Shown here in pieces: positions 5,101-64,000 of a stretch of 64,000 bases of DNA (within the stretch, counting starts at the first letter, position 1; each line of letters begins with the position of its first letter). The stretch comes from Sipunculus nudus (taxonomy: Eukaryota > Annelida > Sipuncula > Golfingiida > Sipunculidae). Below the pieces are notes generated by a model. That model did not search any database. It was not told the DNA's origin and saw nothing but the letters and a program-made list of their open reading frames with translations. Both the position numbers and the translations under genes were made by a program. The DNA is taken from positions 93,301,642 to 93,365,641 of the forward strand of contig CM049306.1 of the NCBI GenBank assembly GCA_026874595.1, in the 5' to 3' direction.

Positions 5101-6160
5101 AGCTATTTTTAAATCTGAATTATCAATTCTTGTCACACCTTGGATTAGGAATATTTTTTATTAACTCAGCAGCAGTGGCATAGTGAATTCTGATCAATAC
5201 AAATTATCCAGATTCTGCCTTATTTGGACAGGAAGCTATAATTTAAATACGTCACAGTGTTATAGTGGGTGTGCTGTGCTGAAAGAAGAGTTTTAGATAA
5301 ATTCCATGCTGGTGTAGTTGGGATCAGTTGATTGGCCTGAGGTGCTTGTGTAGCTGTGAATGATCTCAAATAACATCCAGTTCAAGGTAAGATTGCAAAT
5401 TTATTAATGATTATAATGTATATGGTTGAAGTGTTTTTTGGGTGTCACTGGATGTTCATATTTTATTTTTCAAATTCAGTTTTTTTAAGTATGAAACATC
5501 AGTGAGATTAATTTCCATTGTCTGGAAAACTCCTACCCCATGAAAATGGTTATGACTATAGTCCTTCCCAAAACCCATATTCACATTTTTTTGCGATAAT
5601 TATTTTAAGAAAATTCTTTCAAAATGCCCTTTGGTCTAATATGCATGTACAGATATTCTGCTGATTTTGTGTAAAGTAGTAATATATCATGTAAAAAGAA
5701 TTTACTTTGCAACTCTTTCGAGTTATGCTGATGGACTATGGATGGCGTCTTCCAGGCACTGCTGAATGGTATATTCCTCTAAAGTACACTTTCCATGTCT
5801 ATGGCTGCGTGTGGAGTTTGTTAGACAACAGTGACATCACAAAGACAACACAGTGATCGTTTGCGCATCACCTTCAACTGACTGACGTCATCAGTTTGCA
5901 TGGCTTGTTTATTTTCAGTTCTCTGGCGATGATAAAGTCGTAAATGCTGTAACCTGTTTTGTCTCATTTTGGATTATTTGTCTCATACAAAATCAAAGCA
6001 AGGTAAGGCATTATTTTTTATTCAGGCAGTCAGTGGAATGGCTCCTGCAACCTTTGGACCAGAAAGGTTTACACTGCTTCTTTTGTATGCAAAATTATCC
6101 CTGAAAACATGTTGACAAGGGTACTGGGACAGACAGTAATTCAGAACCTGCTGATTATTG
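1504..6160. other. Non-coding stretch, mostly unique A/T-rich DNA
   Basis: No supportable gene. The AT microsatellite at 2133-2200 is listed separately. A short triplicated CTGTATAT motif occurs near 3500. A few isolated splice-donor-like sites occur, for example CAAG|GTAAGA near 5395, preceded by an ATG-led nine-codon frame that I consider too short to call. Nothing else stands out. Confidence 0.5.
2133..2200. repeat. (AT)n microsatellite
   Basis: An uninterrupted AT run of about 46 bp (2133-2178) is followed by a degenerate TATATATGTATGTATTTATTTA tail. It is likely to be polymorphic in length. Confidence 0.9.
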
Positions 6161-6162
6161 TA

Positions 6163-7819
6163 TCCCCAGACAAGGTCAGGATACTATTGTTTCACGATGG
6201 TCCCGCCGCCGCGGCCACAGAAAAACCTTGTGAGCGGGATAACTAAAAAAATATTTCACTGATCTTTTTCAAACTTTACATTTGTATAGATATAGGTAAA
6301 GGGATGAAGCCTAATTAAAATGAGGTCATTACCTATGCTAGGAGAGTGACCTTGACCTTGAATAGGTCCATTATGCTAAAAATAACACAAATTCTTAAAT
6401 ATCTCAAGTAAGCTTGCATGGACTGGCCCAATAATAAAGGTGACCGAAGATCTTGGATAGCCTTGTGATATACCGGAATCTGGTGGCGCCACCTATTATC
6501 CTTTTCTTGTTTTTACGCCTTTTAATACCCCCATAATTGCGACTTGACAGGACTGTAAGCATTGTAAGTCAAAAACTAATGGACAGATTTCTTTCATATT
6601 ATGCACATGTAGAGAGATGGGTTATGGGATGAGGTCTATTTACATTTGGGTCATGACCTTCACCATGAGAGTGGCCTTGACCTTTAATGTGTCCATATTT
6701 GGTGAAAATCACACACCTCTTATGATATCTCCAGTGTTGATAGCCATATGGATTTCAAACGTGACTTATATATGGCCCACCACTTAAGAAAGAACCCTAT
6801 AGGTTCTAAGGTCATGAGGTCAAAGGTCAAGGTCACTGGACTCGCATCTTAAAAGATACTGTGGATGCATTTTCATCCAAACAATTCATCTCAGATCTTT
6901 CATCTTGCACATGTAGTTCACCTGCCAAGAGTGGAAGACCCCTATCAATTTTGAGGTCACAAGGTCAGAGGTGAAGATCACAGGAGCCATCTGTCCAAAA
7001 ATTAGTCTCTGGATGATAATTCCTGGTTTTATTGATGTATGGATTTCAAACTTGACTTGTATATGTCCCATTGGAAAAGCAAGACCCAAGTTGATTTTGG
7101 GGTCATGAGGTCAAAGGTCAAGGTCACAGGACACATCTTTAAAAAGATGTGGATGCATTTTCAGCCAAACATTTCATCTCAGATCTTTCATCTTGCACAT
7201 AAAGTTCACCTGCCAAGAGAGGAAGAACCCTATCAATTTTGAGGTCACAAGGTCAAAGGTGAAGGTCACAGGAGCCATCTGTCCAAAAATTAGTTTCTGG
7301 ATGATAATTCCTGGTTTTATTGATGTATAGATTTCAAACCTGACTTATATATGTCCCATTGAAAAAGCAAGACCTGAATTGATTTTCGGGTCATGAGGTC
7401 AAAGGTCAAGGTCACAGGACACATCTTTAAAAAGATTGTGGATGCATTTTCAGCCAAACATTTCATCTCAGACCTTTAATCTTGCACATATAGTTCATCT
7501 GCCAATAGAGGAAGACCCCTGTTAATTTTGAGGTCACAAGGTCAAAGGTGAAGGTCACAGGAGCCATCTGTCCAAAAATTAGTTCTCGAGATGATAATTC
7601 AAACTTGGATTAATATATGGATTTCAAACCTGACTTATAATAATATATGGCCCATCAATAATTCTATACCTCAATTGGTTTATATATGAAAGTGGACGAT
7701 CAATATCAATTTTGGGGTCACAAGGTCAAAAGTCAAGGCCACAGGAGCTTATTCTTAAAGGGGGGCGCCATACTATGTCTGGGGATACTCTGGCACCTGC
7801 GGTGCCAAGAAATGTCTGG
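6163..7819 (+). mobile_element. Family A Helitron-like (Helentron/HINE type) non-autonomous element, copy A1
   Basis: The 5' end is TATCCCCAGACA, the left arm of a now decayed hairpin. The same sequence appears inverted near the 3' end (TGTCTGGGGATA, just before 7792). A perfect 3' terminal hairpin, GGCACC-TGC-GGTGCC, lies at 7792-7806, and the element ends in CTGG followed by T. This matches rolling-circle Helitron2/Helentron ends: an asymmetric terminal inverted repeat, a 3' hairpin, a CTRR end and no target duplication. The interior has a GC-rich CCG tract near 6205, diverged 5' units, and about three 288-bp units (anchors near 6811, 7100 and 7388) rich in AGGTCA half-sites. No Rep/helicase is present. 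Exact ends are uncertain by a few bases because TTGTATCC is shared by all copies. Confidence 0.75.
6811..7760 (+). repeat. Core tandem array of element A1 (~288-bp units)
   Basis: About three units repeat with a period near 288 bp. Each unit contains two half-site clusters: AGGTCAAAGGTCAAGGTCA, and the variant AGGTCACAAGGTCAAAGGTG followed by AAGGTCA. The last unit is diverged and partly deleted. It is the same unit as in the array at 44011-46980. Confidence 0.85.
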
Positions 7820-9130
7820 TTATCAGCTGAAATACAGAGAGCTCTGATGTTCTTGTCTTAACTCAAACACCTCCCACTCTGTGCACACCCAAACTAAGCA
7901 CACTTCACAACTTCAGTAATCCCCAAATAGTTTGTTCTTGTACTCAACGCACATTCCTATCCTATCTATTATAGTTCATTTGTTATGGATTTAAATGAAT
8001 GGTCACTTATTCATTTCTTTCTATTCTTGGACTTGTACTTTTTCTTAAAAAATCAAACTTGGCTTGTTTATTATAGGAATAAAGATCATTGGTTAACCCT
8101 TATCTCTGAACAACATGTCCATGTGCCTGGCCCAGAAGTTTTGCAGCAGCCATACTTCGTGATTATCAGATGACCCTGCAGTGTGTACATAAGACTTCCG
8201 CTGACTTTTTTGTGCAGGATTTGGAGAAAACTGTAGGAGATGAAACCAGCAGTGAATCTGCCCTGGCTCAGCCTGTTACCTGCTGCAATGATTACCTGTA
8301 ATGCTTGCAGCCGCGGCCAGGTAGAGACTCAGGTCTGCCCCTTGCTGACAGCACTGAATGTTTTCTCAGATGGCCTTGTTGCATCAGAGCAGTAATGGTC
8401 TCTGATGCCAGCACTGTTATTGCCACAGGATGTAGTTTCCAGATTGGTTGAAACAGCAGCGAGCTCAGTGCTGTTCCAGAAACTGTGGATGTCAGAGAGG
8501 GGTGTTACTATGTTGATATTGTAGTAAACTGATCTGATACGGAGGTTGGGGGTGAGGTAGTATTACATGGATCTTATAAGTCTGTAGCTGGTTATATCTT
8601 ATAGTCAGGTGGGCTAATAAGTACATGAATAAGCAATGTCTTCCAGGGTATCAGTTCTGGGGCTGGATTCAGTGCTGGATCACACCTTCATGAAAACCAT
8701 ATTTCAGTTTTGCACTGTTTTTCCAGAAGAGGAATTGCTGATTGCATCTGTGGTATTTCCTCATCCCAGCTCATGACCATTTTTGACCTTACAGATCACT
8801 GAAGTGTAATCACAAAGCTATATTCATTGATCAGTGATAGTTTATTTGATATACATAGAGAAAAGTATGACTGGCAACATTGGATAAAATATATACCTCA
8901 GTATAGATCAACATTGCATACTTGATGAGCAAAGGGTGAGTCCTGCAAAGAGCTACCAGAGATCTCATGATTGATTCTGTTGTTACAACAGAATATATAC
9001 TCTAATTGTAATGCAGTTATCAACAATGAATACAATTTCAGCAGTTTCATTCTTAAACAGTTAAGAATGGACTCCCGGTACAGCACAGACAAAGGCAGTT
9101 CCCCACATTTGAGATACCAATACTTTTGAG
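7820..9130. other. Non-coding stretch between element A1 and the 40-bp minisatellite
   Basis: Mostly unique sequence. The only coding-like signal is the weak exon candidate at 8218-8297, listed separately. Nothing else is supportable. Confidence 0.5.
8218..8297 (+). CDS. Weak internal exon candidate (hypothetical)
   Basis: An acceptor-like tract, CTTTTTTGTGCAG, ends at 8217. It is followed by an 80-bp open frame reading DLEKTVGDETSSESALAQPV and then TCCNDY, with a possible donor (CCT|GTAATG) just before an in-frame TAA. The composition is more codon-like than the flanks (GAT/GAG/GCC/CTG-rich). The donor is weak, and joining it to the candidate exon at 756-812 gives an immediate stop. It may be chance; I do not recognise a family. 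Confidence 0.15.
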
Positions 9131-9700
9131 GTACCTGTAAATGACCCTGTAGTAATTTAGACTTCAGAGAATACCTGTATCTGAACTCTAGTAATTTAGA
9201 CTATGCAGAGTACCTGTATATGAACTGTGGTATTGTAGACTTTTGAGAATATGTGTAGATGAACCTGTGTTTTTTTAGACTTTGTAGAGTACCTGTAGAT
9301 GAACCTGTGTTATTTTAGACTTTGTAGAGTACCTGTAGATGAACCTGTGTGATTTTAGACTGTAGATGAACCTGTGTTATTTTAGACTATGTAGAGCACC
9401 TGTAGATGAACCTGTGTTATTCTAGACTATGTAGAGTACCTGTAGATGAACCTGTGTTATTTTAGACTTTGTAGAGTACCTGTAGATGAACCTGTGTTAT
9501 TTTAGACTATGTAGAGTACCTGTAGATGAACCTGTGTTGTTTTAGACTATGTAGAGTACCTGTATATGAACCTGTGTTATTTTAGACTATGTAGAGTACC
9601 TGTAGATGGATCTGTGTTATTTTAGACTTTGTAGAGTACCTGTAGATGAACCTGTTTTTTTAGACTTTATAGAGTACCTGTAGATTAATCTTGGTGATTT
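9131..9700. repeat. 40-bp minisatellite
   Basis: About 14 head-to-tail copies of a 40-bp unit built on GTACCTGTAGATGAACCTGT and then GTTATTTTAGACTATGTAGA. The outer copies on both sides are the most diverged and the central ones are nearly identical. That is the usual pattern for an array homogenised by slippage or unequal exchange. One copy near 9360 is truncated. Units abut directly with no unique spacers, so this is not a CRISPR array. Confidence 0.95.
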
Positions 9701-30000: not shown

Positions 30001-30133
30001 ATTGGCGATTACTAGTATTTTAAGGTATGTCTTTAGTTAGATTATATGACTTTTTTAGCTCAGCTGACTGAAAGTCATCTGAGCTATAGCGATCACTCTT
30101 TGTCCGTCGTCCGTCTGTCCGTCTGTCCATCCG

Positions 30134-32110
30134 TTAACCAGGCACAAATCGTAACCGCTGGACCTAGAACCTTGTAACTTGGGATTCTGAGAGGTCCATA
30201 AAAAATCTCCTTGGAAACCAGAAATTAGGTCTCTGTTACCCATATCCTTCGAGCTATGTGGCGCCAAAGTACCCCCCAGAAAAGTCAAAAATTTCATACA
30301 AAAACTTCAATATCTCATTAACTACTTGACTGATGGTCATGATTTTTGGCATACATATTGATCATGAGATGTTACATCGCTTCCTGCAGACTGGTGGCGC
30401 CACCTGTATTTTTCGATTTTTTACGAATTTTTTTCTCTATTTTTGAGACCTTTAAAAATGTGAACATCTGTTAACAAGGCACAAATCATAAAGACTGGAC
30501 TTAGAATCTTAATTCTTGACACACTGAGAGGTCCATGAAAAATCTCCTTGGAAACCAGAAATTAGGTCTCTGTTACCCATATCCTTCGAGCTATGGGGCC
30601 CCAAAGTACCCCCCAGAATAGTAAAAAATTTCATACAAAAACTTCAATATTTCAATAACTACATCACTGATGGTCTTCATTTTTGGCATACATATTGATC
30701 ATGAGATGTTCGATCAGTTCCTGCAGACTGGTGGCGCCACCTGTACTGTTTGATTTTTTACGATTTTTTCCTCTATTTTTGAGACCTTTGAGGATGCTGT
30801 CATCTGTTAGCGTGGCACAAATCGTAACGACTGGACCTAGAATCTTCATTTTCGACACACTGAGAGACCTATGAAAAGTCTCCATGGAAACCAGAAATTA
30901 GGTCTCTGTTACCCATATCCTTAGAGCTATGGGGCCCAAAATTACCCCCCAGAATAGTCAAATTTCATACAAAAACTTCAATATCTCATTAACTACATCA
31001 CTGATGGTCATGATTTTCGACATACATATTGATCATGAGATGTTTCATCAGTTTGTGCAGACTGGTGGCGCCACCTGTATTTTTCAATGTTCACGAATTG
31101 TTTTCTCCATTTTTGAGACCTTTAAGGATGTAGTTATCTGTCAACAGGGTACAAATTGTAACGACTGGACCTAGAATCTTTGTTCTTGACACACAGGGAG
31201 ACCCATGATAAGTCTCCATGGAAACCTGAAATTTGGTCTCTGTTACCCATATCCTTTGAGCTATGGCACTCCAAAGTACAGCTCAGAATAATGGAAAATT
31301 TGATACAAAAGCTAAAGTATCTGAACAACTAATGCAGAGATAACCATAATTGTTTGCATGGATATTGATCATGGAGTGTTTCATAAGTTTCTGCAGACTG
31401 GTGGCACCACCTGTATTTGTTCGGTTTTTTTTTTACGAAATTTTTCTGTATTTTTGAGACCTTTAAAGATATGAACATCTGTTAACAGGGCACAAATCAT
31501 AAAAACTGGACCAAGAATCTTCATTCTTGACACACAGGGAGACCCATGAAAAGTCTCCATGGAAACTTGAAATTAGGTCTCTGTTACCCATATTCTTTAA
31601 GCTGTATGGGTCCAAAATACCCCCCCCCCCCCCCAGAATAATGGAAAATTTGATACAAAAACTGCAGTATTTCAATAACTACAACACTGATGGTCATGAT
31701 TTTCGGCATACATATTGATCATGAGATGTTCCATCAGTTTCTGCAGACTGGGTGTGCCACCTCTATTTTTTTTCAAAATTTTACGAATTTTTTTCTTTTT
31801 TTTTGAGACCTTTAAAGATGTGGTTATCTGTCAACAGGGTACAAATCGCAACAACTGGACCTAGAATCTTCATTCTTGTCATGCAAGGAGGCCCATGAAA
31901 GGTGCCTGTGGAAACTTGAAATTAGGTCTCTGTTACCCATATCCTTCAAGCTATAGGACTCCGAAGTATCCCTCCGAATAATGGACAATTTGATACAAAA
32001 ACTGAAGTATCTGAACAACTAATGGGGAGATCACCATGATTTTTTGCATGGATATTGACCATTAAGTGTTTTTATTAGTTTCTGCAGACTGGTGGAGCCA
32101 CCTGTATTTT
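30134..32110 (+). repeat. Six ~340-bp tandem units in element B
   Basis: The anchor GGCACAAATC or its variant GGTACAAATY recurs at 30141, 30478, 30814, 31148, 31489 and 31838 (spacings 334-349 bp). Each unit also has GAAATTAGGTCTCTGTTACC, a CATACATATTGATCATGAGA-like segment, CTGCAGACTGGTGGCGCCAC and CTCTATTTTTGAGACCTTT. Units differ by roughly 10-20 percent by eye, so the array is old. A poly-C run at 31620-31634 sits in the fifth unit. Confidence 0.9.
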
Positions 32111-33282
32111 TGTATCCGCCAAAACGAAGTTTTGCGGATACTATGTTTTTGACGGAGTTCCTCCACCGCGGCGGCGTTCGTTTCCAGAGAGCTCCTCGGA
32201 GACTAATGGACCGATTTTTCCCAAACTTACACCTATTATCGGGTCACATGTGAACTGGTGCCTAACCAATTTGCGTTGACCTCTGACCTTTCCTCTCTAT
32301 CCAGTGTCCAATTGTGGGTCTGTTTCCACTCATAAACCCTCATATCTCGGGAACCGTTTGACCGATCAGGAAATAAAATTGATACAAATGTAGCCCTTGG
32401 ATTGCTTTATAACATACACAAAAAATGGTGGCACCACCTGTAACCATGTTTGCACAGTGTCCATCTGTTCATCTGCCTTGGGTTAAAATCACTCATATCT
32501 CTGCAGTGAATTGACTAATTCACCTGAAATTCGTCATGCGTATACATCCAGGATAGCTTTCTTGATTTTATGACAGGTGGCGCCACCTACGTTCACGTTC
32601 ACGCTGATGACATCCAAGCTTATATCTTGGGAACCGTTTGACCGATCAGGAAATAAAATTTATACAAATGTAGCCCTTTGATAGCTCTGTAACATACACA
32701 AAAAATGGTGGCGCCACCTGTAACAATGTTTGCACAGCGTCTGTCTGTTAGTCTGCCGTGGCCTAAAATCACTCATTTCTCTGTAGTGGTTCGACATAAC
32801 TGCCTAAAATTTTGCAGGTTTATACATCGTGGACAGCTTTCTTGATTTTATGACAGGTGGCGCCACCTACATTCTAGTTAACGCTGCACACATCCAAGCT
32901 CATATCTCAGGAACCATTTGACCGATTGGGCCAAAATTGTGCATGTGTTTAGATCTCACATAGGTCTTTATCATTCACAAAACTGGAGGGGTTACCTGCA
33001 AAGATTTTTGCACAGTGTTTGTCTGTTTGTCTGCCATGGGCAAAAATCGCTCATATACATGTAGTGGTTTGACTTTTCTGCCTAAAATTTTGCAGGTGTA
33101 TACAACTTGGACAGCTTTCTGGATTTGTCGTAGGTGGCACAACCTACATACACATTTAGGCTGCAGACATCCATGCTAATATGCAACATACCTCACTCTA
33201 TTTCCCCTTGCCAATCAATCCATGCCTCACTATCCGATTTTGGCAGATACATGTAGTCACTTGTCGGTTACCCGTATTCTAG
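32111..33282 (+). mobile_element. Family C Helitron-like element nested inside element B
   Basis: It begins TGTATCCGCC with a hairpin at 32113-32140 (TATCCGC-C-AAAAC, GAA loop, GTTTTGCGGATA). TTTTGGCAGATA at 33238-33249 is an 11/12 inverted copy of its left arm. It ends in CTAG (33279-33282) before TTTT. On the left the host reads ...CACCTGTATTTT. On the right it resumes as TTTTAAAAGTTTACACATTT and CTCTATTTTTGAGA, which is the expected continuation of a family B unit, so the insertion lies between T residues. The interior has a CCGCGGCGGCG patch (32166-32176) and about three 280-bp units starting CTCATATCTCGGGAACCGTT (near 32340, 32620 and 32900). The 3' hairpin is weak. Confidence 0.75.
32340..33180 (+). 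repeat. Three ~280-bp tandem units in element C
   Basis: Anchors of the form CATATCTYRGGAACCRTTTGACCGATY lie near 32341, 32621 and 32901. Each unit carries a palindromic or near-palindromic GGTGGCGCCACC-type site in each half: 32427 (variant), 32576, 32707 and 32856. The third unit is more diverged. Confidence 0.85.
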
Positions 33283-39105: not shown

Positions 39106-40414
39106 GTATGTATCAGCATTTATGTCTCCTTCCCAGCAGGGACACTCGTCACATCATTGTATTGTGAGGTAGATGCCACAGGAGACATCCCCTCTGTCTA
39201 ATGACATCCATGTAATCTGGGTAGGTCATCTGGTGCCCACCTCTAATGGCCTTTCCACTGAGCGTATCATTTCCCATGAATGTGCTTGACATCACTGCAT
39301 TCTATGCTCAGTGGTATCACTAAATCCCTCTGTGTGTTTCCAAGCAGTGTATTTTTTTCCTGTTTTTACGCCACCATTCATCTTCCATATTTTACATCAG
39401 GTGAGCAAATCAGGCATAATCAACTTCAAACATGGTGCCATGTATGTCATTATTGTGTATTGGAAGATGAACGCTCAAGAACACTTTGTATTCTGCCGAC
39501 TTAAACTTTTGGGCAGTATTTTTCTTTGAAGTATTTAATAATCTTTATTACGTTGTGCCTTCTGTTGTGACCATATACCTTGAATATGACAAAAGAAAAA
39601 TTAATCTGTAAAAGAGCACACAACTGTCTATTCTGAAGTTCAGAATTATGGATCAGTTGGTGTAGTTATAGTTTATGCAAATATTACACATTTCATCATC
39701 CTTGTGTGCAAGTTTTCTCATGACCCTCAGACCCTTGAGAAACAATGTTTCAGTGTTCATATAAATTGGTGGACATTTGCTTGGGTTGCGGTGGGTGGGC
39801 GTTATTATTGACCCTGGTGTGTCTGCCATACACACTCGCCACAGACTATACTTAAACAGACTGTATGTAAACACACGGGGCATGCCTGCCACAGGCAAAC
39901 CTGCAAACGTTCCCACAAGCTATGCCCACACAAGAAAGCTCATTTCTGTGTTATATTTCCTTATTACCATAATATATTGCAGACTGGGGTCTTGTCCTCT
40001 GCGGAGAAGGGCAAAGTCAGCAAACAACTTGTCCTCATTTTATTAATTACTGATGTTACCCTGGCCTGGCTGTGGATCATGTAAAATCTGTATAATTATT
40101 CTGGCCACATGCCACTGTTGACACTGAACCCATATCGTGTCAGTTAGAATTCGATTAAAACAAGGCAGGGTAGGCCTGACAATCAGATTGTTGGCTTCTA
40201 ATGCTATTTTGTTGCTCAATTAGCAAAACCCAGCATGTGACTCACAAACCTAGGTTCAAATGAGTCAGGAGTACAGAACATAATTTTCAGATTGTTAATG
40301 GAGTAAAAGACAAGCAGTGAGTTTAAATAAACCGTAGAAAGGTCTCCCTACCTAGGGTCGACCAGGATTTGTATTTCACAGTTTTGTTTCCATTGTTCAA
40401 GTAGAGTCATTGTA
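39106..40414. other. Non-coding stretch after the candidate exon
   Basis: If the exon at 38921-39105 is real, this is intron. Otherwise it is intergenic. Overlapping frames of 72-89 codons between 39280 and 40046 have no supporting signals. Confidence 0.45.
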
Positions 40415-41374
40415 TCCCCAGAAAAAGTCGGGGGATACTATGTTTTCATACCGGTCCCCCTGCTGCCGCCGCATATAAATCTTGTTGGCGCGATAACTCA
40501 AAAAATATTTCAAGAATCTTTACCAAACTTGGTATATGTATAGATATGGGTGAGAGGACGACTCCTATTTAAAATGAGGTCATGACCTTGACTAGGAGAG
40601 TGTCCTTGACCTTGAATATGTCCAATTTTCGGGAAAATCACACAAATTCTTAAATATCTCAAGAAATCTTGCATGGATTGATCCCAAAATCAAGTTGATG
40701 GAAGATCATGGATAGGGTTGTCATGTTCCAAAAACTAATTGCGCCACCTGTTATTCTTTACTTGTTTCATGCCGTTTAATACCCCCAAAATTGCTACTTG
40801 ACAGTACTGTGAGCATTATAAGTAAAAAACTAACAGACAGATTTCTTTTATATTATGCATATACATAGATGTGGGTTATGGGATGATGTTTATTTAAATT
40901 GGGGTCATGACCTTTCCTATGAGAGTGGCCTTGACCTTAAATATTGCCATATATGGTGAAAATCACACAAAATCATTAATATCTCAATAAGGGATGCATG
41001 GATTGGTCCAAAAATCAACTTGACCGAAGATCTTGGATAGTGTTGTCATGTACCAGAAACTGATAGCGCCACCTGTTATTCTTTTACTTGTTTTCATGCC
41101 GTTTAATACCCCATCATTGCCACTTAACAGTACTGTGAGCATTATAAGTCAATAACTAATGGACTAATTTCTTTCATATTATGCATTTACATTGCCATGG
41201 GTTAGGGGATGATATATATTGAAACTGGGGTCATGACCTTTTCTATGAGAGTGACCTTTTCTATGAGTGTGGTCTGATATTAATTGTTGCTGAAGATGGG
41301 GGCCTATTCTTAAAGGGGGGGGGGATTAATTGTCTGGGGATACTATGGCACCTGTGGTGCCAAGAAATATCTAG
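40415..41374 (+). mobile_element. Family A Helitron-like element, core-less copy A2
   Basis: It has the same ends as A1 and A3. It starts with a TATCCCCAGA hairpin (right arm altered to TCGGGGGATA), followed by ACCGGTCCCC and a short CTGCTGCCGCCGC tract. It ends with TGTCTGGGGATA, a perfect hairpin GGCACC-TGT-GGTGCC (41347-41361), and CTAG (41371-41374) before TT. It lacks the 288-bp half-site array entirely. Instead it has about three diverged copies of the 5' module spaced near 326 bp (around 40505, 40830 and 41157). A poly-G run at 41317-41324 lies near the 3' end, as in the other copies. Confidence 0.8.
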
Positions 41375-43334
41375 TTGATATATTAAATATATTATACATT
41401 AACAGTCATTATCATAGCAATCAGTGGGGCCTGCGGGCACTGACAAGGACCATTTGTTACATAAAATGAACATTGAGCCAGAAATTCTCCATGGCCATCT
41501 CTTCATTTACAATTTAAACATCTATCTATACATTACTTGCCACAGGCCATAGGGGCGGTGACAATAAAGGTAACTTTTAACAGCCATTAGGTACGCATGT
41601 TTGGTGCCTCATCAAATGTGATCCAGTGCCCATAAAGATGGAAGGGTCTGTATATATGAGACCTGTAGTTAGGCAATTTACACCAAGGTCAGTTGCCAAG
41701 TACCTGTTACATGTTATATTGAGGACCTGTGTATATGGGGAACAATGTAAAAGTACCTTTATTATTAACAGAACTAAAGTATAAACATTTGTATGCAATA
41801 GAAAACGTTTGCTTTACTGCGGTTTGAACATGATAGAAAATCACATGGCCTTTAGATTGTTTCTTTAACCTATTATTAGTATTGTATAAAATAAACATTA
41901 AGTGTATTTTATGAAAAAAAACTCTACAGTTATATGGAAATTCTTCTTAATATATTGAGATATAACAAGTTTTGTGCAGGAACCAAAACCTTGATGGATA
42001 AAAAGTTTATGATTAATCAGTTAAATCAGAGTTTGTTGATCCTTGGTTGTGATAATATTTTGTAAATATGGTGATAACCTATGTTATATGATGTAGAGTA
42101 TGTAATTTGCGGTTCATGGAGGGTGACCTTTATGTATATAAAAGTTTGATGGATGTGATTACCACCAGGTCTGAGGTTGTAGTCCTGCTCTGTCAGGTTA
42201 TAAAATAAAGATCCCTGTTCATTCACCACATCCTCATCAGATGACACATTATATATATACACTAAATCTGTGTGATTCAGTGGTCTGCTTCAGTCAATCT
42301 GTAATATGTAATTAAATGTATAATAGGTATATTCAATTATCCAATTTTTATCCAGTATAAATATTTCCAGAGTAGACAAAACTCTTGCATGGACAAGCAT
42401 GGGATCATTTGGGGTTTTATTAATGTGTATTGGGTTATGGAAATGTCTAAGGGGTCTGTCACTCAACCTGCAGTGTCTGGTACTCTTGTAATATTAAAAT
42501 TGTAAGAGGTCAGACTCAATAAGGGGAAGGAGGCTCTTTAGGTACTAAAATACTGGGGAGTTTGCATTCATTATATACTTTATCAGGAAGAGTCTGTGAA
42601 GCTGTGTTTACACTACACCTGTATTCACTATATATGGTATCAAATACCATCTTACTGCCTCCCAAATGCATGTTCTGTTTACACTACACCCATATCCATT
42701 CACATTTTGATCAAGATTGGTAATTAGATCCAGATAGAAATGTGAATGAATATGGTAAAACAACATCAGGATTTAGTTTTGTTACCAAATTTATTAATAT
42801 GGTGATCACTTTATAACAGATATGTAAGCATGTATATGAGCACATAAACATATATAATACTTGTCATTAGTATAAAATTGTTATATACATTTAGAATTGA
42901 TACAGTAGTATTTAAAAAACTTTAGAAAACGTCTTAAAATCATTTATTTTTATATTTTAGTCAAGGGTGGGCTTTTGTCCAAGTCTGCACTTTTAGGGTT
43001 GGGGTTTTGACCAGTGGGCTCTTGTCCAGTGGGCTTTTGTCTGTCACCCGTACTGGATACCCCTATTTTGGGACCCACTATTTACATGCAGTGTATTGAA
43101 TACTCGATACTGTATGTTGAATTCAGTATTGGGGGAAAGAGTAATGGACATGCTAGTAGTAGTGTAAAATTGGTTTCATCAAACTAAAACATTTCAATCT
43201 TTTAGACACCTCAGCCACTGCTATTATGGCATTAACATTAGTATCAGCTTTGAAGTTTTATTATGCGGCAGTGATTCTAAGAGTCTGGGGTTGTAATTGT
43301 ATGGTAATTGAAATTTATTAGTGTCTTTATTGTA
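41375..43334. other. Non-coding stretch between elements A2 and A3
   Basis: Unique A/T-rich sequence of about 2 kb. Near 42970-43050 the words GGGCTTTTGTCC/GGGCTCTTGTCC recur three or four times at short spacing, a small imperfect tandem. No gene is supported. Confidence 0.5.
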
Positions 43335-43375
43335 TCCCCAGACAAAGTCTGGGGATACTATGTTTTCATACCGGT

Positions 43376-43417
43376 CCCGCCGCCGCCGCTGCCGCCGCCG
43401 CTGCCGCCGCCGCCGCC
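43376..43417. repeat. (CCG)n / CTG-interrupted trinucleotide tract
   Basis: About 13 GCC/CCG triplets with two CTG-type interruptions, in the 5' region of A3. The same spot in A1 has only TCCCGCCGCCGCGGCC, and A2 has CCCTGCTGCCGCCGC, so this copy has expanded. An open frame with a proline run across it is a by-product. Confidence 0.85.
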
Positions 43418-44010
43418 ACATATAAATCTTGTTGGCGCGATAACCCAAAAAATATTTCACGGAACTTTACCAAACTTGGTATATGTATAGATATGGGTGA
43501 GAGGACGACGCCTATTTAAAATGAGGTCATGACCTTTACTAGGAGAGTGTCCTTGACCTTGAATAGGTCCAATTTTGGGGAAAATCACACAAATTCTTTA
43601 ATATCTCAAGAAATCTTGCATAGGTTTATCCTAAAATCAAGTTGATGGAAGATCATGGATAGGGTTGTCATGTTCCAGAAACTGGTGGCGCCACCTATTA
43701 TTCTTTACTTGTTTTCATGCCGTTTAATACTCCCAAAATTGCCACCTTACAGTACTGTGAGCATTATAAGTCAAAAACTAATGGACAGATTTCTTTTATA
43801 TTATGCATATACATAGGTATGGGTTATGGGATGATGGTTATTTAAATTGGGGTCATGACCTTTCCTATGTTAGTGGCCTTGACCTTGAATATTGCCATAT
43901 ATGGTGAAAATCACACTCCTCTTATGATATCTCCAGTGTTGATAGCCATATAGATTTCAAACATGACTTATGTATGGCCCACCACTAAAGTAAGAACCCT
44001 ATAGGTTCGA

Positions 44011-46980
44011 GGGTCATGAGGTCAAAGGTCAAGGTCACTGGACTGGCATTTTAAAATATACTGTGGATGCATTTTAAGCCAAACTTTCATCCCAGGTCTT
44101 CCATCTTGAATATATAGCTCACTTGCCAATATTGGATGATCCATAGAAATTTTGGGGTCACAAGGTCAAAGGTCAAGGCCACAGGAGCTATCTGTCCAAA
44201 AATTAGTTTCTGGATGACAATTCCTTCTTTTATTGATGTATGGATTTCAAACTTGACTTGTATTTGACCCATTGGAAAAGCAAGACCTGAATTGATTTTG
44301 GGGTCATGAGGTCAAAGGTCAAGGTCACAGGAAACCTCTTTAAAAAGGTTGTGGATGCAATTTCAGCCAAAAAATTCATCCGAGATCTTTCATCTTGCAC
44401 ATATAGTTCACCTGCCAAGATTGGAAGACCCCTATCAATTGTGAGGTCACAAGGTCAAAGGTGAAGGTCACAGGAGCCATCTGTCCAAAAATTAGTTTCT
44501 GGATGATAATTCCTGCTTTTATTGATGTATGGATTTCAAACTTGACTTGTATTTGACCCATTGGAAAAGCAAGACCTGAATTGATTTTGGGGTCATGAGG
44601 TCAAAGGTCAAGGTCACAGGACAAATTTAAAAAGGTTGTGGATGCAATTTCAGCCAAAAAAATCATCTGAGATCTTTCATCTTGCACATACCATTCACCT
44701 GCCAAGAGTGGAAGACCCCTATCAATTTTGAGGTCACAAGGTCAAAGGTGAAGGTCACAGGAGCCATCTGTCCAAAAATTAGTTTCTGGATGATAATTCC
44801 TGCTTTTATTGATGTATGGATTTCAAACTTGACTTGTATTTGACCCATTGGAAAAGCAAGACCTGAATTGATTTTGGGGTCATGAGGTCAAAGGTCAAGG
44901 TCACAGGAAACCTCTTTAAAAAGGTTGTGGATGCAATTTCAGCCAAAAAATTCATCCGAGATCTTTCATCTTGCACATATAGTTCACCTGCCAAGATTGG
45001 AAGACCCCTATCAATTGTGAGGTCACAAGGTCAAAGGTGAAGGTCACAGGAGCCATCTGTCCAAAAATTAGTTTCTGGATGATAATTCCTGCTTTTATTG
45101 ATGTATGGATTTCAAACTTGACTTGTATTTGACCCATTGGAAAAGCAAGACCTGAATTGATTTTGGGGTCATGAGGTCAAAGGTCAAGGTCACAGGACAA
45201 ATTTAAAAAGGTTGTGGATGCAATTTCAGCCAAAAAAATCATCTGAGATCTTTCATCTTGCACATACCATTCACCTGCCAAGAGTGGAAGACCCCTATCA
45301 ATTTTGAGGTCACAAGGTCAAAGGTGAAGGTCACAGGAGCCATCTGTCCAAAAATTAGTTTCTGGATGATAATTCCTGCTTTTATTGATGTATGGATTTC
45401 AAACTTGACTTGTATATGTCCCATTGGAAAAGCAAGACCAAAATTGATTTTGGGGGCATGAGGTCAAAGGTCAAGGTCACAGGACACATCTTTAAAAAGA
45501 TGTGGATGCATTTTCAGCCAAACATTTCATCTCAGATCTTTCATCTTGCACATATAGTTCACCTGCCAAGAGAGGAAGAACCCTATCAATTTTGAGGTCA
45601 CAAGGTCAAAGGTGAAGGTCACAGGAGCCATCTGTCCAAAAATTAGTTTCTGGATGATAATTCCTGCTTTTATTGATGTGTGGTTTTCAAACTTGACTTG
45701 TATATGTCCCATTGGAAAAGCAAGACCTGAATTGATTTTGGGGTCATGAGGTCAAAGGTCAAGGTCACAGGACAAATTTAAAAAGGTTGTGGATGCAATT
45801 TCAGCCAAAAAAATCATCTGAGATCTTTCATCTTGCACATACCATTCACCTGCCAAGAGTGGAAGACCCCTATCAATTTTGAGGTCACAAGGTCAAAGGT
45901 GAAGGTCACAGGAGCCATCTGTCCAAAAATTAGTTTCTGGATGATAATTCCTGCTTTTATTGATGTATGGATTTCAAACTTGACTTGTATATGTCCCATT
46001 GGAAAAGCAAGACCAAAATTGATTTTGGGGGCATGAGGTCAAAGGTCACGGTCACAGGACACATCTTTAAAAAGATGTGGATGCATTTTCAGCCAAACAT
46101 TTCATCTCAGATCTTTCATCTTGCACATATAGTTCACCTGCCAAGAGAGGAAGAACCCTATCAATTTTGAGGTCACAAGGTCAAAGGTGAAGGTCACAGG
46201 AGCCATCTGTCCAAAAATTAGTTTCTGGATGATAATTCCTGCTTTTATTGATGTGTGGTTTTCAAACTTGACTTGTATATGTCCCATTGGAAAAGCAAGA
46301 CCAAAATTGATTTTGGGGTCATGAGGTCAAAGGTCAAGGTCACAGTATACATCTTTAAAAAGGTTGTGGATGCAATTTCAGCCAAAAAATTCATCTGACA
46401 TCTTTCATTTTGCACATATAGTTCACCTGCCAAGAGTGGAAAACCCCTTTCAATTTTGAGGTCACAAGGTCAAAGGTGAAGGTCACAGGAGCCATCTGTC
46501 CAAAAATTAGTTTCTGGATGATAATTCCTGCTTTTATTGATGTATGGATTTCAAACTTGACTTGTATATGTCCCATGGGAAAAGCAAGACCCAAATTGAT
46601 TTTGGGGTCATGAGGTCAAAGGTCAAGGTCACAGGACACATCTTTAAAAAGATGTGGATGCATTTTCAGCCAAACATTTCATCTCAGATCTTTCATCTTG
46701 CACATATAGTTCTCCTGCCAAGAGAGGAAGAATAATATCAATTTTGAGGTCACAAGGTCAAAGGTGAAGGTCACAGGAGCCACCTGTAAAAAAAATTAGT
46801 TTCTGGATGAAAATTCCTGCTTTATTGATGTATAGATTTCAAACTTGACTTGCATATGTCCCATTGGAAAAGCAAGACCCAAATTGATTTTGGGGTCATG
46901 AGGTCAAAGGTCAAGGTCACAGGACACATCTTTAAAACAATCAAGGTCACAGGACCAACATCTTCAACAAGATTGTGGAT
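44011..46980 (+). repeat. 288-bp tandem array of element A3 with higher-order (576-bp) duplications
   Basis: The anchor GGGTCATGAGGTCAAAGGTC (or close variants) recurs at about 44011, 44301, 44590, 44877, 45166, 45453, 45741, 46028, 46316, 46605 and 46893, a mean spacing of 288 bp. Subtypes follow the anchor. One type has GGAAACCTCTTT (44301, 44877), one has GACAAATTTAAAAAGG (44590, 45166, 45741) and one has GACACATCTTTAAAAAGATG (45453, 46028). The order is A B A B C B C D, so two adjacent dimers (about 576 and 575 bp) were duplicated recently. The last unit is truncated. Confidence 0.95.
44017..46920 (+). promoter_or_regulatory. Array of nuclear-receptor half-site clusters (DR1 + extended half-site)
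   Basis: Nearly every unit contains AGGTCAAAGGTCAAGGTCA. This is a perfect DR1 (AGGTCA-A-AGGTCA, the HNF4/RXR-type element) directly followed by a third half-site that forms TCAAGGTCA, the consensus for FTZ-F1/SF-1 and ERR monomers. A second cluster, about 150 bp away in each unit, reads AGGTCA-CA-AGGTCA-A-AGGTGA-AGGTCA. About eleven of the first kind are in A3 and three in A1. What is seen is the sequence; binding is inferred from receptor specificity and has not been shown. Confidence 0.5.
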
Positions 46981-47111
46981 TGTTAGATGGAAGAAACAAT
47001 AAATATGCCAAGTGTCAGTATATGCTGCCAAAATTGGGGGTCTGTTCTTAAAGGGGGGGGGCTACTATGTCTGGGGATACTCTGGCACCTGCGGTGCCAA
47101 GAAATGTCTAG

Positions 47112-48643
47112 TTATTTTAGTGTTTTCCCAGATGCTTTGTGATTAATTCCTGATTGCAGTGTCAAAACCACATTTACTTGGTAATCATTTAAAAGAAGTA
47201 ATTGGACCTCCTTATTTGTGTATTAACTCACCATCAGGACTTCATTACAGCAGTATAATGAAGTAAGGGTAGGTATACAGAGAGTGAATATTCAGCTGGA
47301 TGGTGATGTTGGAGTCCTCCAGTCTGAGTAGGGGCTTTATTATACAGTGCCTGGTGTGTGTCACCAGAGACGCTGTCATTGGACACATGTCTGGTGATCT
47401 GTTGCTCACTTTGAGCCTCCCCATGAATGACAAATAACAAAACACTGATTAATGTTGTTGAATCCTGTAGTGTTATTGTGCATGGCATCATGGGAGACAA
47501 ACATATGAAGACTGTGCTTAGCACAGGAGACTTGTTGCTAGACTGTGTGTAATCAGACTGAAGGATAATCCACTAGAGATTAGCCTGATTAGAATAAAGA
47601 CAATAGTAGGGGCGGTTACTGAACAGGGGGCGGGTTCCCTAATGGTAGGCATCAGCTGTGGAGTTTGAGAAATAGACATAGGTTATAACACCTGCATGGA
47701 CTTGACATCAGGCCCTCTACAAATTAGTGAAGGATGAACCAGGGTGCATGAATACCACAACCTGACATAAGGTCACTGAGGTTGGCAATGCTTGGTGGTT
47801 TAATGGTGTGGTTGGTCCACTTTTCCCATGATGTCAGGAGCACCTGATGTGCCCCCCCCCCAACCCCCCTTGTTGAATAAAATCCTGTTGTTACAGTCCC
47901 TGTCTCATTACAAGCAGTGTGGTGGAGCTACACAAACTGCCTGAGACAGGGATTAATATTTTGTACTTTAAACCCTCTGGAGTAGAAGCTCAGGGTTTGT
48001 ACCTTCCACCCTCTTCAGTGGTTAGATATGGTCGCTGAGGAAGACTTTGTGCCCTGGATAAAGGAGTGACCTCTCCTCCCCTTCAGTCTGTATATCTGGG
48101 CTGTTTAACCCGCAGGCACCCAGCCAGAGTGACTCCTGTGTACCCCACCACCATACCAGGTAACGTGTAAATAACTGGCACGAGTCTTTGTCTGACATTC
48201 ACTGCTGGTGTTATCAGCCACACAACCTGAATCACATCTGGATTTAACTAAGACTAAGAGCTTTTTTTACTCTGATGATGGAACATGACTTCCCCTGTTA
48301 TTTGATTCCTGAAGAAAAATCATGTGCAAGATATCGAGTCCTTATTTGGGTGACATACCTTTCAGATAAACATGAAATACCTGCACACTCTGTAAGTCTG
48401 TTAATTTGAAGTGATAAAACGAATGTCACAGAAAATGTATATTTATATTAACAATGGAAAATACTTGATGATATATATGTTAATTACTCTGATCATCCCT
48501 GATTGATCTCAGCTTGTGAGCCCTGTTGGGATCAGCTGTAGACTTCATTCACAGTCAGTTCAGTAATTGATTTACTATTTAAATTCATTGAGATATAAAC
48601 TGTTTTCCATCATATTTATTTATAGACAGAGGTTAATTTCTTT
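47112..48643. other. Non-coding stretch between element A3 and the 57-bp minisatellite
   Basis: Unique sequence with a C-rich patch near 47851-47869. Overlapping minus-strand frames near 47234-47524 have no supporting features. Confidence 0.5.
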
Positions 48644-48985
48644 CCACTTGCAGTATGTTGCACCAATGTATTTGATATTATGTAAAACACATTTTTCTTA
48701 CCATTTGCAGTATATTGCACCAATGGATTTGATATTATGTGAAACACATTTTTCTTTCCATTTGCAGTGTATTGCACCAATGTATTCGATATAATGTAAA
48801 ACACATTTTTCTTACCATTTGCAGTGTATTACACCAATGTATTTAATATAATGTAAAACACATTTTTCTTACCATTCGCAGTGTATTACACCAATGTATT
48901 TAATATAATGTAAAACCCATTTTTCTTACCATTTGCAGTATATTGCACCAATGTATTCAATATTATGTAAAACCCATTTTGATCT
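48644..48985. repeat. 57-bp minisatellite, six copies
   Basis: CCAYTTGCAGTRTRTTGCACC-type starts lie at 48644, 48701, 48758, 48815, 48872 and 48929, exactly 57 bp apart. The rest of each unit is AATGTATTTGATATTATGTA and then AAACACATTTTTCTTA. Because 57 is a multiple of three, repeated open frames appear on both strands. Each unit contains a pyrimidine tract followed by CAG. Confidence 0.95.
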
Positions 48986-61698: not shown

Positions 61699-64000
61699 TT
61701 ATGGTGTGTTATGTGTCAACAATAGGGCATGGTGTGTCCGCTGTGTGAGCGTTTGTGGTTGGATGATGTGACACCCGGGACTCCCATATGTCCAGAGCTG
61801 CACTGAGCTGCTGCATTCCCACAGTCACTGTGCTCATACGTCTCAATATTGTTCATTATACACAGGTGCTCAATCTAGGTACATACACATGGAGACAGGG
61901 AAGGGGTGTATATAACATAGGTGCACTTGTCTATTTCTTTACAACAGTTAGGTCAATAAGATCAGGTGTTTTATTTGATCACTTTATGTGTTAATTGATC
62001 AGGATGAATTATGTGGTGATATTTATTAATATTAAGGTCAAGGTTAGCCTGACAGCCAGTACAAGCAAAACATGGTACAAGCAAATGAACAATTGTGACA
62101 TACATCAGTGATCCAGTTATAGAGAATGATTGTCATGGAAAATTATTAATTATCAGCCAGGTGCAATGATTTTACTGTATACATACAATGGTTATATTAA
62201 TAATCAGCCAGCTGAATGCATTTACTGTATACATACAATGGTAATATTAATTATCAGCCAGGTGTAATGATTTTACTGTATACATTCAATGGTTACTTAC
62301 AGCAGACAAGCTGTGCAGGTTTTTGTACAGGTAACTGACTCTCCTAACTTGGTCAGGTGCATAGTAAGAGGCATTCTGTTCCAGTGGTTGGATCATTGAT
62401 GTGTTATTACTTACACACCATTGAGCATGTAATTTATGCTGATTTCACAAACATCCTATCAGTGTATTTACCACATGGCTACACATAAGTTCTATCTGAA
62501 GCCAACTGTCTGACCAGATGATAATCAATGCAGGTATTGTGTATCTACTGTCTGTCAATTCACTGAGTACACTGATGGTGTCAAATGCACTTTAAAATTA
62601 CCATCATTACAATCATCTCACCTACTGCATGGTTACTAACACCCTTGCTGTAGATATTATCATTGAAAACTATATTATTAAAAAAATGAAGGCTTAAGTT
62701 GATCATTATGTTTTGGTGATATATTCATTATATATATATTATATATTCATATGTTATTATTAAGAATCTCGACAAGGGATCAGTTGCCAATTACTAGTAT
62801 ATATGTTTCCTGGACACATTATGAGCAGTATCATAACATATTGTCATGTTTCTCATTGTTAAAAACTTAAAGGAATCAAAATCCCAGTTTTATATATCAG
62901 ATTAATTTATATATATTAATTTAAATATATGATTTTATTAGCTGTAATTGAGTCCTATATTGGCATTAAATTTAACAGTGAAACACGGAAAAGTGGGCCT
63001 CTTTTATTGATGAAAATAAAGCCATCCATCTTTTTTTGTGTTGCCATAAATTTAAAGGCACAGACATTGTGAACAAGATTAAGACCCTGCAGTAATTTTA
63101 CGACAGTACTGAAAAAACGTTGCCAGCATCTGTGAGTGCTGTCTATTCGTGGTGTTTGCACTGTCTGACCTATACTTCTTCCTACCGTGACTTTCCTCTC
63201 CGACAAGTCACCGTAAAAGCTAATCTTAGCTTTCCCTGATCAGCTTGACGGCACAGCATCAAAAACATACTGCATTGTTTTACGTAAAGACGGAGTTCGT
63301 GAGGTACACCATTGATCTGCTCACAGCCTGATAAAGATTCTCTGGAAGGTCAAGGTCTTCATGAATGTTGCAAATATATGGAAGGATCTAATACAAACAG
63401 ATGAGGAGTGTTGACCCAGCTCACTAAGTCTTCCAAGTTAAGGTTCTTATAGCTTTGTGGAATCTATAAAAGCTAAAAGGTGCATGTTATATATAGCACA
63501 GACTGTACAGATATGTCATAAACTCAAACTACATACATAACTCAGCAGAGTTATATACTTGTAAAGTATTAAAATCTCTGCTTTGAATATATCATTGTGC
63601 ACAAGCTTTATATTTTCTACTGACACAACCAGTCATTAGTTCTTAATTTGAATACTGATTTTTTTCTTTCAATTTTGTATATTTGCTGTCATTTGTGCTT
63701 TAGTCATTGGCTTGTATTCTGGAAGTGCATAGTTCATGTCTTGTGTGTATACATGCATTTCCACAATAATTGTTCAGTTTAGTTTCACATTGGGTAATTA
63801 CCATTTATGCATACATGAGATTTTCTATAACTGTACAAATAATTACCCAGAGCAGTTATTGTGCACTACACATGCTATTAATATTATCAATTTATGTTTA
63901 TAGTAGGGACAGGAAAGTCTTTTAAAAAAGAAATATTGAATGACAATAATAAACATGCATACTGTATACCATCAGAATACTAACATTTAAAAAAGGATAT
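61699..64000. other. Non-coding A/T-rich right edge
   Basis: No gene supported. It contains a three-copy tandem at 62142-62295 and AT-rich palindromic tracts near 62732-62757 and 62892-62930. The sequence remains A/T-rich and unremarkable to the end. Confidence 0.5.
62142..62295. repeat. ~50-bp tandem repeat, three copies
   Basis: TCAGCCAG recurs at 62153, 62204 and 62254. Each is followed by a TTTACTGTATACATACAATG segment and a run like GGTTATATTAATTA. The second copy has lost about five bases after the anchor. Confidence 0.85.

Follow-up and report, generated by a model that had tools for sequence, protein, structure and literature searches.

A non-autonomous Helentron carries the array

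The window (the whole 64,000-nucleotide stretch of Sipunculus nudus DNA analysed here) contains the HINE-A copies A1 and A3 and a derivative of the same element. The features of these, with the basis of each assignment, are as follows.

6158 to 7821, + strand: HINE-A copy A1, with a three-unit array (copy comparison, termini)
40409 to 41376, + strand: HINE-A derivative with leader modules and 3′ end, without the central array (self-comparison; sequence in part)
43330 to 47113, + strand: HINE-A copy A3, complete, with ends TTGTATCCCC ... CTAGTT (both termini recur in other insertions with different flanks)
43332 to 43358, + strand: 5′ subTIR GTATCCCCAGAC and adjoining inverted repeat GTCTGGGGATAC (sequence; HINE definition as given in the available text of PMC4067079 and PMC7492417)
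43377 to 43417, + strand: CCG microsatellite of the left flank (TRF)
43524 to 43535, + strand: leader module 1, AGGTCATGACCT, an inverted repeat of half-sites without spacer (sequence)
43548 to 43563, − strand: leader module 1, inverted extended half-sites, TTCAAGGTCAAGGACA on the − strand (sequence)
43850 to 43889, − strand: leader module 2, palindrome GGGTCATGACC and inverted TTCAAGGTCAAGGCCA (sequence)
44011 to 46937, + strand: central array, 10.2 copies of a 288-bp alpha+beta unit (tandem-repeat and sequence analysis)
47069 to 47080, + strand: 3′ subTIR GTCTGGGGATAC (sequence; copies of the 3′ end elsewhere)
47084 to 47098, + strand: 3′ hairpin GGCACC-TGC-GGTGCC (sequence; other copies)

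Its sequence organization identifies the carrier of the 288-bp array, HINE-A, as a non-autonomous Helentron (HINE), of which the array is the central tandem repeat. Subterminal inverted repeats of approximately 12–15 bp are present (GTATCCCCAGAC at 43332 and GTCTGGGGATAC at 47069), the stem-loop near the 3′ terminus ends 15 nt before the end of the element, and the central repeats are accompanied by a lack of coding capacity: none of the window's eight stop-to-stop frames of at least 110 amino acids lies inside 43330–47113. The 5′ end of A3 reads TTGTATCCCCAGACAAAGTCTGGGGATAC and is followed by the CCG microsatellite and two leader modules; the array of A1 occupies 6747–7639, with an additional degenerate copy at 7723. 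As the sequence-only reading had proposed, the array is borne by a transposon, since it lies within a complete element whose termini are common to other insertions, and the leader modules do carry the half-site words inverted, module 1 of A3 also containing the perfect inverted repeat AGGTCATGACCT.

The termini were examined in 20 loci (18 fetched by leader similarity, plus A1 and A3). In 17 of these both ends could be located; all 17 have TT at each end, preceded by A in 16. Direct repeats between the flanks are 0–2 bases long in 16 of the 17 loci, and in the remaining one (L012) reach six bases of AT-rich sequence (TATTTA). In first-look searches the A3 leader had 2,536 candidates, the A1 leader 3,284 and the 3′ end 1,503 (40 of each were scored), and HINE-A therefore probably has thousands of copies. 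The HINE-A hairpin was absent from ten 5-kb segments downstream of autonomous Helentrons, most of which stop before the end of the element.

HINE-A resembles Cg_HINE of Crassostrea gigas, described in the available text of PMC7492417 as a set of non-autonomous Helentrons with 5′ subTIR, inverted repeat, a microsatellite also in the left flank, 3′ subTIR, palindrome and a central satellite-like array of monomers of mostly 140–180 bp. It differs in its termini (GTATCCCCAGAC) and in having a 288-bp dimer as its unit. DINE-1 and the HINEs of arthropods share subTIR, 3′ stem-loop, central repeats, lack of coding capacity and probably the TT preference, as far as the available part of PMC4067079 describes them; the distance from the end of the 3′ subTIR to the terminus is 33 nt in HINE-A and approximately 38–60 bp in the mite HINEs of that paper.

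Architecture of the repeat unit

The 288-bp unit is an old dimer of two halves of approximately 145 bp, alpha and beta. When the two are aligned, 28 of 33 columns are identical within the cluster of half-sites, against 55 of 116 outside it. Every half-unit of the A3 array holds a GGTCA cluster with TNAAGGYCA at its end, and the beta cluster reads AGGTCA-ca-AGGTCA-a-AGGTGA-AGGTCA.

Motifs were counted at homologous positions, in ungapped sites only and with each copy taken once. The extended half-site TNAAGG(T/C)CA is present in 166 of 183 alpha and 171 of 188 beta clusters. By contrast with this, DR1 is intact in 166 of 182 alpha clusters and in only 22 of 186 beta clusters, and DR0 is present in 162 of 183 alpha and 0 of 188 beta clusters. 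DR1 was thus rejected as the conserved unit, and since DR1 is missing from most beta clusters, which retain the extended half-site, less weight falls on it and on HNF4 and RXR. The second four-half-site cluster described earlier for each unit is confirmed in part: that of beta includes the word AGGTGA and mostly lacks DR1.

Variants of the 9-bp extended half-site that distinguish lineages are few. Two fixed changes separate the beta subfamilies TGAAGGTCA and TCAAGGCCA; two more separate the variants TCAAGGTCA, TAAAGGTCA and TTAAGGTCA of leader module 2 (18, 14 and 2 of 34 modules), and one separates TCAAGGACA from TCAAGGTCA in leader module 1 (20 and 13 of 35 modules). All five lineage-level changes fall at position 2 or 7, compared with 4 of 46 private changes in alpha and beta (Fisher p 5e-5), a comparison in which the five changes are few and partly linked, and which we take as no more than a strong lead, because it was framed after the variants had been seen. 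An ERR site tolerates any base at position 2. The ESRRB/NR5A2 motif is TCAAGG(T/C)CA, with T or C at position 7, in the available text of PMC8451941; TCAAGGACA, one of the five changes, has A at position 7 and lies outside the T/C rule.

Abundance of the 19-mer

The 19-mer AGGTCAAAGGTCAAGGTCA was counted in the window and in the genome. The window holds 13 perfect copies, three in A1 (at 6817, 7108 and 7396) and ten in A3 (between 44019 and 46919), so that the number first given for A1 was right, and those for A3 and in total (about eleven and about 14) were slightly too high; with up to two mismatches there are 27 copies. One hundred dinucleotide-preserving shuffles of the window gave none. 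In the whole genome (1.43 Gb, 153 contigs) the exact 19-mer occurs 11,219 + 11,251 = 22,470 times on the two strands, and the reversed 19-mer 0 + 0 times. The absence of the word from the shuffles and of the reversed word from the genome rules out a chance origin of the array. The shorter word TCAAGGTCAC occurs 36,294 + 36,135 = 72,429 times, approximately 33 times its reversed control (1,091 + 1,079).

The surroundings of the motif were surveyed in 18 regions taken from places of the 19-mer, all near one end of contig C1. Eleven fit the profile of the 288-bp unit, two of them (L022 and L031) in diverged form, and the other seven fit an array of approximately 330 bp; all 18 sampled loci thus match arrays of Helentron-type elements.

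Shared and private variation

Units were aligned by profile. The A3 set comprises 151 units with fewer than 40 gaps, retained from 172 matches, at 20 loci, and the A1 set 40 units with fewer than 60 gaps at 15 loci; the A1 copy is common to both and was counted once, giving a combined set of 188 units at 34 loci. Since copies were selected for resemblance to the leaders in the window, young HINE-A copies are over-represented. A variant was called shared when present in at least 5% of units.

The GGTCA clusters contain far fewer shared variants than other columns, whereas private mutations hit both alike. The ratio of half-site to spacer columns is 0.34, 0.56 and 0.38 for diversity (A3, A1 and combined sets, respectively) and 0.24, 0.35 and 0.23 for shared variants, as against 0.86, 1.64 and 1.21 for singletons. 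The 37 units of A1 type taken alone give a shared-variant ratio of 0.34 (shift p 0.038) and a singleton ratio of 1.47. In the combined set of 188 units and 34 loci, 4 of 56 cluster columns carry a shared variant, compared with 79 of 233 columns outside (Fisher p ~3e-5, the columns being linked), and the proportion of shared to rare variants is 4:70 in clusters and 88:253 outside (p 4e-5, with the same linkage). A circular-shift test, in which the mask is slid along the unit, gives p values of 0.038 to 0.045 for shared variants; within the individual sets, the values for diversity and shared variants are 0.03–0.11. Rare private substitutions amount to 6.7 per 1,000 site-units in cluster columns and 5.8 outside them; by half-site and spacer columns the values are 6.5 and 5.9.

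The pattern is not uniform. When only first units are taken from the A1 set, the direction is opposite (diversity ratio 0.90, p 0.35). Conservation equal to that of the clusters is seen in some spacer words, such as TGTGGATGC and AAAATTAGT, and constraint is thus wider than the half-sites. Among 280 windows of nine bases, the extended sites of alpha and beta rank 46th and 39th when positions 2 and 7 are left free.

The sequence-only reading had held that the clusters stay conserved between A1 and A3 while the spacers vary, and had called for a comparison of substitution rates between the two. The half-sites are indeed clustered and kept between A1 and A3, and the comparison bears this out for shared variants (4 of 56 against 79 of 233 columns); it does not for private mutations, which are no rarer in half-sites. 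Our reading of this split is that constraint acts on the transposing lineage, with neutral decay once a copy has inserted. Constraint of that kind, not acting on fixed insertions, speaks against an enhancer or sink for the host. It is probably the transposon, not the host, that the sites serve, because the word is little changed in the spreading lineage while single insertions decay freely. More generally, comparing shared with private variation is a simple means of telling whether selection acts on a transposon or comes from its host.

Autonomous Helentrons and a second HINE family

Ten segments downstream of autonomous Helentrons were fetched by their Rep domain, regardless of the motif. A half-site array of approximately 330 bp lies behind the open reading frame in three of the ten, and the three are copies of one family. 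Half-sites are present in these ~330-bp arrays in degenerate form and are not significantly more conserved than the remainder there (ratio 0.73, p 0.15; 19 of 39 profile matches used). One autonomous element encodes Rep, a PIF1 helicase, a C-terminal endonuclease and an OTU domain, in a frame read in two pieces, and the OTU domain is also found in a second autonomous copy. Autonomous Helentrons with frames of 2,229–2,250 amino acids, DUF6570 and OTU domains and ~330-bp arrays behind the open reading frame lie at C4:36163000-36181000, with copies on C3 and C8.

A second HINE family is represented in the window at approximately 32105–33190, with a 5′ end GTATCCGCCAAAACGAAGTTTTGCGGATAC near 32110 and an array of approximately 280 bp with GGCGCCACC palindromes. 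It contains a single inverted DR1 (32277–32289) and no half-site array in the window. A first look returned 2,022 candidates; the best 40 of these 2,022 were 99–100% identical over 316 bp, and the family was dropped as a conservation test for that reason. Half-site arrays are thus not required for the success of a HINE, since this family has spread without one. The array is also missing from the HINE-A derivative at 40409–41376.

The 19-mer in DNA resembling that of other animals

The exact 19-mer was also found in 11 contigs of GTDB, a collection of prokaryote genomes, and in one viral contig. Three of these 12 (L038, L039 and L044) look like animal DNA; the other nine were set aside on context alone, and in one of them, L043, the word occurs on both strands within a word-rich stretch. 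L038 and L039, from one MAG, consist of tandem monomers of 147–150 bp, and L044, from a Bathymodiolus brooksi symbiont assembly, has 158-bp monomers and the Helentron-like ends GTCTCCCCTT ... AAGGGGAGAC. From these tandem arrays and Helentron-like ends we infer that the three are host animal DNA. Only 19–34 bp around the cluster align between their monomers and the unit of the window. Because the contigs were chosen by the exact motif, its presence in them is by construction; their tandem context, the CACA that follows the word and its conservation among the other monomers are not. In L038 and L039 the columns of the 19-mer vary at 0.27 of the rate of the remainder (17 monomers, shift p 0.041).

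A possible role for orphan nuclear receptors

The carrier described here is a known kind of element; what is new is a receptor-type word that appears to be under selection at the level of the lineage and recurs in unlike monomers, and what we propose beyond this is inference. A short word in a HINE array bearing the footprint of selection on the transposing lineage makes the reason for the satellite-like arrays of HINEs directly testable.

Our preferred explanation, to which we give slightly less than an even chance, is that the clusters are sites for a host orphan receptor, kept because binding helps active HINE-A copies. They would be bound by a receptor reading a single extended half-site, of the ERR (NR3B) or FTZ-F1 (NR5A) type, and selection on active copies would keep them since binding helps the element. 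The simplest help would be opened chromatin over the element, or transcription driven from it, in the germ line or the early embryo, stages at which Helentron enzymes can be active. With one cluster in each half-unit of ~145 bp, the array would form a nucleosome-scale series of pioneer-type sites, and individual insertions would in general not be retained by the host. The genome has 67 zf-C4 exon matches; 20 exons for DNA-binding domains were fetched and four compared with the PDB, where their best matches were NR5A2, HNF4, ERR and, more weakly, NR5A2 again.

The available text of PMC11102866 describes NR5A2 as a pioneer factor, able to open nucleosomes, whose targets in mouse embryos include its motif in SINE B1; Esrrb is likewise called a pioneer factor. 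SINE B1 resembles HINE-A as an abundant mobile element with an extended half-site motif, one that an orphan nuclear receptor targets; unlike HINE-A with its Helentron array, it is a retrotransposon, and its binding was measured. NR6A1/GCNF, which reads AGGTCAAGGTCA according to the part of PMC7724306 available, is a possible reader of alpha and a less likely one of beta, because beta has no DR0. In a broader and more doubtful form of the proposal, Helentrons of several marine invertebrates may repeatedly have kept or acquired tandem arrays of ERR/NR5A pioneer-type sites, one per nucleosome-sized monomer, with the host receptor opening chromatin for rolling-circle transposition in parallel to NR5A2 and SINE B1 of mammals.

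The idea that the motif serves the element's own biology, raised in the sequence-only reading, agrees with constraint that seems to lie at the level of the transposing lineage, and such constraint would fit equally well if the GGTCA words were recognition sites of the element's own machinery, either iterons of Rep and helicase or sites of another Helentron protein. Direct repeats of a 5–6 bp word resemble the iterons of other HUH replicons, and one autonomous Helentron family has similar words in its ~330-bp arrays behind the open reading frame. We nevertheless find this improbable: the clusters of A3 lie scattered at distances of about 0.2 to 3 kb from the 3′ end, the arrays occur in three of ten autonomous downstream segments, all of one family and degenerate there, the second HINE of the window has no such arrays, and the variable positions fit a nuclear-receptor motif. 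Somewhat less improbable, though still unlikely, is an absence of any binding function, in which case slippage, gene conversion or recombination would maintain the uniformity of a short-repeat core (GGTCAA) that perhaps promotes expansion of the array. GGTCAA is repeated almost in tandem within the cluster, deletions of 6–8 bp occur inside it (one in the A3 set, six in the A1 set), and the conserved spacer words also suit a cause other than a receptor, as do the BIV160/Cg170 satellites, which have conserved motifs without known role in the available text of PMC5139131. Deletions per column are similar in the A1 set (6 in 56 cluster columns, 33 in 233 others) but rarer in clusters in the A3 set (2 in 56, against 115 in 233). 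Moreover, the two halves have not been homogenized, because TGAAGGTCA or TCAAGGCCA persists in beta and TCAAGGTCA in alpha, and conversion should remove private variants too, which are not depleted.

Selection by the host, for a regulatory element or a receptor sink, is by far the least probable explanation. The 72,429 TCAAGGTCAC sites, ~33 times the reversed control, could be thought to favour it, and a sink for HNF4 has been discussed for Alu (PMC3252374, available text). However, under either of these host roles singletons should be scarce, and private mutations are at least as frequent in half-sites as in spacers; there is therefore no general constraint on fixed copies, and the receptor sink or portable enhancer suggested initially is rejected as the general case. 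A few domesticated copies of HINE-A may exist. The human Alu sites for HNF4 and RAR are also direct repeats of AGGTCA type that a mobile element has spread; they are DR1- or DR2-like, unlike those of HINE-A, and a comparison of shared with private variants is not mentioned in the part of PMC3252374 available.

Our literature search, made on partial texts, found HINEs with satellite arrays and no description of a receptor-site core in them: the available text of PMC7492417 does not mention receptor sites in Cg_HINE, nor does that of PMC4067079 mention a receptor half-site array in DINE-1 and arthropod HINEs. An oyster paper containing TGACCTTGACCT is not a precedent, as the word sits in a primer.

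Other repeats of the window

A 334-bp tandem array at 30128–32111 ends at the 5′ end of the second HINE, and the word TGGTGGCGCCACCTG is nearly common to this array and the HINE-A leader. Further tandem arrays lie at 9131–9685 (40-bp unit), 48637–48980 (57-bp unit) and 62144–62295 (50-bp unit).
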